This document shows, one piece after another, positions 2,935-62,271 of a DNA stretch of 64,000 nt. This stretch comes from Prevotella sp. (GTDB lineage: Bacteria > Bacteroidota > Bacteroidia > Bacteroidales > Bacteroidaceae). The stretch lies in assembly GCA_022775985.1 (NCBI GenBank), contig JALFIM010000039.1, positions 1 to 64,000 of the forward strand. The letters run 5' to 3'. Every line of letters begins with the position of its first letter. Position 1 is the first letter of the stretch. Under the pieces are notes generated by a model, which did no database searches, was not told where the DNA came from, and saw only the letters and a program-made list of their open reading frames with translations. The position numbers and the translations under genes were made by a program.

Positions 2935-3040
2935 TCTGATACACAATGTATTGCAAAATGGGCCAAAACGCATTGCAAAACGGCCCATTTCAGAACGCGA
3001 AACGGCCCATTCCGCAATGCAAAACAGCCCATTTCGCAAA
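2935..3040 (+). repeat. GGGCC-core intergenic repeat element, copy A
   Basis: Four about 22-bp units: TTGCAAAATGGGCCAAAACGCA / TTGCAAAACGGCCCATTTCAGAA / CGCGAAACGGCCCATTCCGCAA / TGCAAAACAGCCCATTTCGCAA, preceded by TCTGATACACAATGTA. Confidence 0.85.
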
Positions 3041-13626: not shown

Positions 13627-13732
13627 TTGATATACAACACGTTGCAAAACGGCCCATTTTAGGTTGCGAAATGGGCCGTTTTACACTCCAAAATGGGCCA
13701 TTTCGCAGCCTGAAACGGCCCATTTCGCAAAA
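13627..13732 (+). repeat. GGGCC-core intergenic repeat element, copy B
   Basis: TTTGATATACAACACGTTGCAAAACGGCCCATTTTAGG / TTGCGAAATGGGCCGTTTTACAC / TCCAAAATGGGCCATTTCGCAG / CCTGAAACGGCCCATTTCGCAA. Confidence 0.88.
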
Positions 13733-13923
13733 CCACTCGGCCAGTACCGTAGTCTTACACATAAGCATCACAAACCACGAAAAGCAATACACACGTATAG
13801 CCAGTGGTGTAAAAACATTACAATTTGACAGGCAAAAGCCCACAAAACGATAAAATTCCTACAATACTACCGTCACAAACCCAAAAACTACTACCCAAAA
13901 TGCCTATTATAAAAGAAAATTAT

Positions 13924-13931
13924 TATCTTTG
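13924..13931 (+). promoter_or_regulatory. -7 promoter box upstream of hisH; leader repeat begins at its last base
   Basis: TATCTTTG matching TAnnTTTG; no clear -33 TTG. Confidence 0.5.
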
Positions 13932-13996
13932 CATAGAATAAGCTACGGCTCAGCAATCGGAGCAAGCTCCATTGCACTCGCACTTGCATTATTCTT
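13931..13996 (+). repeat. Structured leader element, tandem copy 1
   Basis: GCATAGAATAAGCTACGGCTCAGCAATCGGAGCAAGCTCCATTGCACTCGCACTTGCATTATTCTT; outer stem AGAATAA/TTATTCT, inner hairpin GCAATcGGAGC-AA-GCTCCATTGC. Confidence 0.85.
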
Positions 13997-14062
13997 GCAT
14001 AGAATAAGCTACGGCTCAGCAATCGGAGCAAGCTCCATTGCACTCGCACTTGCATTATTCTT
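13997..14062 (+). repeat. Structured leader element, tandem copy 2 (66-bp period, near identical to copy 1)
   Basis: Exact repeat of 13931-13996. Confidence 0.9.
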
Positions 14063-14116
14063 CATAGAATAAGCTGCGACATGGCAGACGCGCTTTAGGG
14101 CCGCTACACTATTCTC
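14063..14116 (+). repeat. Third, divergent stem-loop unit of the hisH leader array
   Basis: Shares CATAGAATAAGCT and the closing TATTCT (14110-14115) with copies 1-2; interior unrelated. Confidence 0.5.
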
Positions 14117-14147
14117 ACATATTTATAACGAACGACTGCATAAGGGA

Positions 14148-14738
14148 ATGGATATCGCAATAGTAAAATACAACGCCGGCAACATCTACTCAGTAGAGAA
14201 CGCGCTACGAAGGCTCGGAGCCATCCCTGTGCTCACCGATAATCCCGAGACCCTCATGTCGGCAGACCACGTGCTGTTCCCAGGACAAGGCGAGGCCGGA
14301 CACACCATGAGGTACCTCCGTGAGCACAACCTCGACACCCTTATACGTGACTTGCGCCAACCCGTACTGGGCATCTGCATAGGCCAGCAACTGCTATGCC
14401 GACATTCGGAGGAGGGCGACACCGACTGCATAGGCATATTCCCCGTAGACGTAAAGCGTTTCAAGCCCACCAGCCACGACGAGAAGGTGCCCGCTATGGG
14501 ATGGAACACCATTGCCGACCTGAAGTCGCCGCTGTTCAAGGGCATCACCGATGACGACTTCGTATATTTCGTACACAGCTATTACGTGCCGGTATGCAGC
14601 CTCACAGCCGCCACTGCCGACTACATAACTCCATACAGCGCCGCACTGCACAAGGACAACTTCTATGCCACGCAGTTTCACCCTGAGAAAAGCGGAGCCG
14701 TGGGAGAGCGTATAATTAAAAACTTCCTGGATATATGA
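14148..14738 (+). CDS. hisH: Imidazole glycerol phosphate synthase subunit HisH
   Basis: LFPGQGEAG, PVLGICIGQQLL nucleophile Cys, TQFHPEKSG. Confidence 0.95.
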   Translation: MDIAIVKYNAGNIYSVENALRRLGAIPVLTDNPETLMSADHVLFPGQGEAGHTMRYLREHNLDTLIRDLRQPVLGICIGQQLLCRHSEEGDTDCIGIFPVDVKRFKPTSHDEKVPAMGWNTIADLKSPLFKGITDDDFVYFVHSYYVPVCSLTAATADYITPYSAALHKDNFYATQFHPEKSGAVGERIIKNFLDI

Positions 14739-29198: not shown

Positions 29199-29303
29199 TA
29201 ATAACCAATACGTTGCAAAACGGCCCATTTCGCAGTGCGAAATGGGCCGTTTTAGCTTGCAATATGGGCCGTTTCGCAATGCGATTCGGCCCATTTCGCA
29301 ACA
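29199..29303 (+). repeat. GGGCC-core intergenic repeat element, copy C
   Basis: Contains perfect 18-bp inverted repeat AAAACGGCCCATTTCGCA-g-TGCGAAATGGGCCGTTTT (29217-29253) followed by two more units. Confidence 0.9.
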
Positions 29304-55870: not shown

Positions 55871-55962
55871 TGCAACGCCTTGCGAAATGGCCCATTTCAC
55901 AGCGCAAAACGGCCCATTTTGCAACGCGAAATGGGCCGTTTTGCAACACACTCATAATCAAT
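55871..55962 (-). repeat. GGGCC-core intergenic repeat element, copy E
   Basis: TTGCGAAATGGCCCATTTCACAG / CGCAAAACGGCCCATTTTGCAA / CGCGAAATGGGCCGTTTTGCAACAC; 14-bp inverted repeat 55906-55942. Confidence 0.88.
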
Positions 55963-61874: not shown

Positions 61875-61980
61875 GTTTGCGAAATGGGCCGAATTGCACT
61901 GCGAAATGGGCCGTTTCGCAGCCTAAAACGGGCCGTTTTACGCTGCATTTCGGGCCATCTTGCAACACATTGTGAATCAG
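61875..61980 (-). repeat. GGGCC-core intergenic repeat element, copy F
   Basis: TTTGCGAAATGGGCCGAATTGCAC / TGCGAAATGGGCCGTTTCGCAG / CCTAAAACGGGCCGTTTTACGC / TGCATTTCGGGCCATCTTGCAACACATTGTGAATCAGA. Confidence 0.88.
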
Positions 61981-62154: not shown

Positions 62155-62186
62155 TTGTTTACTCTCAACTTTTTTATGTAAGTTTG
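62155..62186 (+). promoter_or_regulatory. Bacteroidota-type promoter adjoining leader element
   Basis: TTG (62155-62157), 21-bp spacer, TAAGTTTG (62179-62186). Confidence 0.65.
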
Positions 62187-62250
62187 CATAATGTAAGCTA
62201 CGGCTCGGCAATTGAAACAAGTTCCACTGCCCTCGCACTTGCATTACATC
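62186..62250 (+). repeat. Structured leader element, dispersed copy 3
   Basis: GCATAATGTAAGCTACGGCTCGGCAATTGAAACAAGTTCCACTGCCCTCGCACTTGCATTACATC; aligns to the hisH leader repeats, outer stem ATGTAA/TTACAT. Confidence 0.85.
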
Positions 62251-62271
62251 CGCGTTTAAAATATCTTGATT

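Follow-up and report, generated by a model that had tools for sequence, protein, structure and literature searches.

A 66-bp hairpin repeat at Prevotella promoters, probably a small mobile DNA element

Near-identical 66-bp copies of a structured sequence stand in tandem at the promoter of a histidine operon in a Prevotella sp. contig, and the question they raise is whether this repeat serves the his transcript or is a piece of DNA that has inserted there. The original prediction, made on the 64,000-nt stretch of DNA analyzed here (the window), named three possible functions: a cis-regulatory RNA, a transcript-stabilizing element, and a small mobile repeat. The last of these fits our results best, while the cis-regulatory RNA is weakened by empty orthologous promoters, unrelated downstream genes, stem substitutions that do not favor G·U pairs, and a bias of the occupied promoter boxes toward TATCTTTG. 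In our view, we are probably dealing with a mobile hairpin of ~66 bp, non-coding and non-autonomous, that as DNA inserts directly 3' of the -7 promoter box and regenerates that box.

The tandem copies upstream of hisH are real; a mechanical repeat search recovered direct 66-nt repeats at 13922-13987 and 13988-14053, and as delimited here, with all features on the forward strand, unit 1 occupies 13932-13997 (90 bits with covariance model R1) and unit 2 occupies 13998-14062, the latter missing the final G and identical to unit 1 at all 65 of its nucleotides (repeat search, covariance model, and sequence). The -7 box of the his-operon promoter, TATCTTTG, was placed at 13924-13931 from the sequence and the profile of 80 occupied promoters, and position 13931, originally given as the start of the repeat, is therefore the last G of the box. 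A -33 TTTG would be expected at 13901-13904, where the sequence has no clear match. The outer stem (AGAATAA/TTATTCT) and the inner hairpin (GCAAT.GGAG/CTCC.ATTGC) both form as claimed in the predicted fold, at -19.3 kcal/mol and a z score of -2.7 relative to dinucleotide shuffles. A third, decayed unit follows at 14063-14118, recognized by repeat search and fold and lying under the covariance-model threshold; its core has been replaced, but the outer stem (AGAATA/TATTCT) is preserved and the 5' arm CATAGAATAAGCTGCG largely so, with most of the first 16 nt retained. A presumed native leader of 29 nt (14119-14147) leads from the array to hisH (14148-14738), the first gene of a presumed transcript with the order hisH-hisA-hisF-hisIE-ftsE-aspartokinase-lysA (NCBIfam and open reading frames [ORFs]), in which the FtsE-type ATPase scores under the cut-off of that NCBIfam model. 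The position directly after the -7 box would put the first unit at the extreme 5' end of this predicted his-ftsE-lys transcript, in agreement with the original prediction. The window holds one more element locus, where a -7 box (TAAGTTTG, 62179-62186) precedes a single family unit (62187-62252, covariance model and sequence) with the outer stem AATGTAA/TTACATC and a same-strand ORF shortly downstream; the original prediction missed both this unit and the decayed one.

A second dispersed repeat is also present in the window, with direct and inverted copies of AAACGGCCCATTTCGCA at 2978-3038, 13665-13729, 29218-29300, 55881-55941, and 61878-61916 (16 matches at up to 2 mismatches, compared with 0 in shuffles). 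Its cluster at 13665-13729 is a short distance upstream of the his promoter, and the repeat also adjoins hairpin units at two further loci (L021 and L039).

The hairpin itself belongs to a large family. A covariance model built from 48 copies (R1) has 82 matches in the source genome at E < 1, and the 79 of these that score at E < 1e-4 exclude a chance origin; these roughly 80 units, together with the 20 to 56 units per genome in four relatives, mark it as a high-copy intergenic palindrome. The original prediction had missed this extent, along with the resemblance of each unit's 3' end to a -7 box (TATCTTTG in most copies, TATTCTTG at the his locus). The source assembly (2.86 Mb) is fragmented, and several of its contigs terminate at the hairpin repeats. 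R1 has matches in 212 of 250 species of the Prevotella-type genus, and a broader model (R2) has matches in 24 of 198 genomes from across the order, representing 19 genera (18 besides that of the source genome); many of the R2-matching genomes carry tandem arrays with a spacing of 66 to about 84 bp. Near-identical units occur at unrelated loci. Three core types can be distinguished by their length and a 2- to 3-bp middle stem, and all share a 7-bp outer stem, a GC/GC pairing, CTC on both sides of the internal loop, a GCAA/TTGC stem, and an apical hairpin. Where a classical MITE, moved by a DDE transposase, would have terminal inverted repeats and a target-site duplication, the unit has inverted arms of 7 bp and an 8-bp box on both sides; the left and right boxes agree in 51 of 80 cases (40 expected) and often differ. 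A coding repeat was rejected: one frame of the 66-nt unit is open, yet other species have units of 64 to 67 nt and longer, so the reading frame is not kept. The unit has no Rfam match up to E = 1, which removes known RNA families as candidates, and a literature text search for its sequence found nothing. A description of the family was likewise not found in a literature search whose coverage left out most subscription journals, and the family is apparently undescribed.

Several variants and neighbors of the family were observed. In one genome (G179), eight loci hold the hairpin inside a near-identical repeat of ~250 bp that also contains a further palindrome, GTGTAGCTCGCTACAC, and the hairpin there does not follow a -7 box. 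At seven other loci, a small hairpin that begins where transcription is expected to start, and that has a different sequence at each locus, separates the -7 box and the unit. Two units of the source genome are reversed (L018, 6622-6687; L039, 5088-5153), and the other end of each touches a -7-like box of a gene on the opposite strand. In a phage collection, six unannotated contigs from human feces match the unit. A DNA search for near relatives of a Segatella element locus gave results dominated by another dispersed repeat. On a Segatella hominis plasmid (L364, 2600-2770), a stretch of 140 to 170 bp carries the annotation of a small hypothetical protein; it has matches in 277 of 399 genomes of the genus, with two per genome being typical.

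Across the family, units are found at promoters. We surveyed nearly all arrays of three well-assembled relatives (G010, G153, and G061; 61 arrays), and a perfect TAnnTTTG immediately precedes the first base of the array in 54 of them, a count that the frequency of this motif in the window makes impossible by chance; a same-strand ORF of at least 98 amino acids starting no more than 200 nt away was likewise found for 54 of the 61. The promoter association first proposed for the his locus extends to copies genome-wide, the outcome that the original prediction required. An alignment on 80 occupied boxes shows TTTG or TTG at -31/-30, a 19-bp spacer, and TAnnTTTG, together with A/T tracts, which is the profile of the sigma-ABfr promoter with its -7 TAnnTTTG and -33 TTTG (PMC7366714). 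Counting from this -7/-33 convention, the predicted start of transcription falls at about nucleotide 4 of the unit, where the outer stem begins.

This arrangement is what would be expected of the main alternative to a mobile hairpin, namely, a 5'-leader RNA in which selection maintains, at many promoters, a 5'-terminal hairpin that stabilizes the mRNA or serves as a binding site for a protein or ligand: the units sit exactly at the predicted +1, they are in the sense orientation, and the promoters are intact. The conservation of the structure and of the CTC/CTC internal-loop motif within the genus and beyond also speaks for a leader RNA, and conservation of structure and internal-loop sequence over such wide distances counts against the mobile reading, since a host function would also explain it. 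We nonetheless regard a selected leader as unlikely, for reasons that begin with the genes concerned. As judged by eye, the genes behind the units are unrelated (a sigma factor, metA, trpS, folP, and transporters) and do not form a coherent regulon.

Orthologous promoters are a further argument against a leader RNA. The sigma-factor gene of the source genome has two units at its promoter, and this unit is present at none of the promoters of 29 sigma-factor orthologs in the genus, although 27 of the 29 have TAnnTTTG upstream, nearly all at 22 to 34 nt before the ATG. In the source genome, the last box of the array lies 27 nt before the ATG and is followed by CAACATG..., much as in the empty leaders, and given the 22 to 34 nt at the orthologs, the leader looks preserved. 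At about 100 hisH orthologs, this unit was absent from every promoter; in most orthologs, the box is 20 to 41 nt ahead of the start codon. Both the position of the unit and the length of the leader are as expected if the unit had entered after the -7 box and ahead of the native leader without any loss of sequence, although the empty sites compared are those of different species, and no excision or transposition event was seen between near-identical genomes. In one Bacteroidaceae metagenome-assembled genome (RUI473; L170, 2904-2980), hisH is directly preceded by a unit that belongs to the same superfamily yet clearly differs from this one, which points to an independent insertion at the same gene.

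Occupied and empty boxes also differ in sequence. The box is TATCTTTG in 51 of the 80 occupied cases and has C at position 4 in 72 (90%), compared with 2 and 17, respectively, of 52 empty orthologous promoters of the sigma-factor and hisH genes (p about 4e-13 and 7e-12) and with 22 and 53 of 110 sense intergenic boxes of the source genome (p about 1e-9 and 6e-10). Such a bias toward the unit's own 3' terminus is what sequence-directed insertion would predict, though a preference for strong promoters could be an alternative cause; it is a further point against a selected leader RNA. The orientation of the units is also less telling than it appears: 78 to 85% of intergenic TAnCTTTG and TATCTTTG sites (85% for TATCTTTG) already lie in the sense direction upstream of a gene, so most of the units' sense orientation follows from the target alone.

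The stems show a covariation that exceeds all 500 shuffles and is far above slid controls as well, which establishes the hairpin as real and is a point in favor of a conserved RNA structure. The kind of pairing involved, however, is not the one expected of RNA. Selection on a sense RNA should favor G·U over A·C, yet among the stem cells of 200 units we counted 2,402 Watson-Crick, 46 G·U, 71 A·C, and 42 other combinations, and distinct events, which are not phylogenetically independent, numbered 29 for G·U and 41 for A·C; tRNA acceptor stems, meant as the positive control for this test, yielded too few usable sequences to serve as one. The lack of a G·U preference joins the absence of an Rfam match as evidence against a leader RNA, and covariation almost confined to Watson-Crick pairs suggests either that the DNA is what is constrained or that palindrome correction is at work.

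A mobilizing enzyme was sought among the Y1 transposases. The Y1 transposase domain (PF01797) was undetected by Pfam in 8 of 12 element-rich genomes, the source genome among them. None of 55 scanned Y1 loci has a unit beside the Y1 gene, with one copy located ~1.5 kb away and two other matches marginal. There is no flanking unit at the Y1 genes of G010 (which adjoins a tnpB-like gene) or of G061 and G391 (YxxxQxxHH type), nor at any of 49 other Y1 loci, about ten of them RAYT-like, where the copy at ~1.5 kb is the only clear one. A Y1 or RAYT partner was therefore rejected for most genomes. With an arm, a hairpin, and a terminal box, and with the same box again on the opposite side, the unit is built much like the ends of IS200/IS605 elements, in which a guide sequence located 5' to the hairpin base-pairs with the site to be cleaved. 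The 5' arm of the hairpin unit is complementary throughout to the 3' end of that unit, and between this guide and the unit's own upstream flank we counted 484 pairs against 470 expected, a small excess that comes from two genomes: the match exceeds that of permuted pairings in G010 (p 0.001) and in G153 (p 0.01) and not in G061 or the source genome. Guide-directed choice of the individual target is accordingly a weak candidate.

These results bear on a second alternative, which we think quite improbable, that the unit is a REP-type palindrome moved by the Bacteroidetes RAYTs of subclass 2.6 (group 5). The hairpin, the high copy number, and the phylum agree with it, and RAYT-like genes exist in some element-carrying genomes; genes of this subclass reportedly have "atypical secondary structures" (hairpins) on their flanks, and these recur at other places in the genome (PMC6006769). 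Against membership in this system, however, none of the Y1 loci is flanked by the unit (0 of 49, including the roughly ten RAYT-like ones), and eight element-rich genomes, that of the source included, are without a Pfam-detectable Y1 gene.

How the arrays arise bears on one more alternative. Some arrays, for example those at loci L013, L014, L017, and L034, are composed of mixed subfamilies and therefore reflect independent insertions at one site, while in three others (L315, L317, and L322) the units share an unusual locus-specific stem, which indicates local duplication; on this evidence, growth by insertion and growth by duplication both occur. That local slippage and recombination account for everything, with an ancient leader hairpin duplicated in tandem, gene-converted between promoters, and kept in its stems by quasipalindrome correction, is improbable to a similar degree, for while the locus-specific stems agree with it and palindrome correction would also yield strict Watson-Crick covariation without a G·U preference, homologous conversion would need more shared sequence than the -7 box, the one stretch that the flanks of separate loci have in common, and neither the mixed-subfamily arrays nor the empty orthologous promoters are accommodated.

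A mobile DNA hairpin is thus favored over a regulatory leader by the empty orthologous promoters, the mixed-subfamily arrays, the Watson-Crick covariation, and the TATCTTTG bias. In the mechanism that we propose, the unit would insert 3' of a host -7 box (TAnnTTTG, preferably TATCTTTG) and in the direction of transcription, and its 3' end would bring a copy of the box that leaves the host promoter intact. The transcript would then start at the foot of the hairpin, with the native leader displaced downstream and otherwise unchanged, and the regenerated box could accept or duplicate more units to form tandem arrays. Movement would presumably involve single-stranded DNA in its folded form and an enzyme supplied in trans, and the 5' arm AAGATAA may, as at IS200/IS605 ends, recognize TATCTTTG as the cleavage and target site. 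As a passenger, the 5'-terminal hairpin may be tolerated or even mildly useful to the host. We further propose, tentatively and with somewhat less than even confidence, that this family could represent order-wide, promoter-parasitic minimal hairpin transposons that target the melted promoter (the -7 box and transcription start), each insertion supplying a structured 5' end and a fresh target box.

If the mobile hairpin is confirmed, tens to about eighty transcripts in a single Prevotella genome, including those of housekeeping genes, would start with a mobile hairpin, which would bear on gene expression, promoter annotation, and genome assembly in a genus that ranks among the most abundant in the human gut and the rumen. 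It would also offer a concrete case of an element that inserts where transcription starts, and with its boundaries and empty sites defined, both mobility and the effect on mRNA can be tested directly in species available in culture, Hoylesella oralis among them.

Comparison with known systems places the unit among several types of element. Like the 5'-terminal mRNA-stabilizing stem-loops of the ompA leader type, it would begin the transcript with a hairpin, but those are features of single genes that are conserved at orthologous genes, whereas the hairpin unit is dispersed and missing from orthologous promoters. We also considered a similarity to attB sites of the CTnDOT type, for which we assumed the string GTANNTTTGC; the literature searched did not contain this string as such a site. 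Like REP and REPIN sequences mobilized by RAYT (TnpA-REP), the unit is a short imperfect palindrome present in dozens to hundreds of non-coding intergenic copies and presumably recognized as a single-stranded DNA hairpin; it differs in its length of ~66 bp, its conserved internal loops, its locking to a -7 box that is regenerated, and its lack of a noted GTAG-type tag and of a flanking RAYT. BrickBuilt consists of a 23-bp minisatellite within a longer MITE with terminal inverted repeats. This element of Porphyromonas gingivalis resembles the hairpin family in being a non-coding mobile Bacteroidales element with tandem repeats (PMC4596501), but the hairpin unit is 66 bp and promoter-locked. The ends of IS200/IS605 elements and PATEs differ from the family in that most carriers of the hairpin have no TnpA, its target is a promoter box, the unit is a single hairpin, and its guide-target complementarity is weakly supported, but they are like it in consisting of one non-coding hairpin with a 5' arm complementary to both cleavage sites and in inserting immediately 3' of a short fixed target, here the TAnnTTTG found at 54 of 61 arrays.
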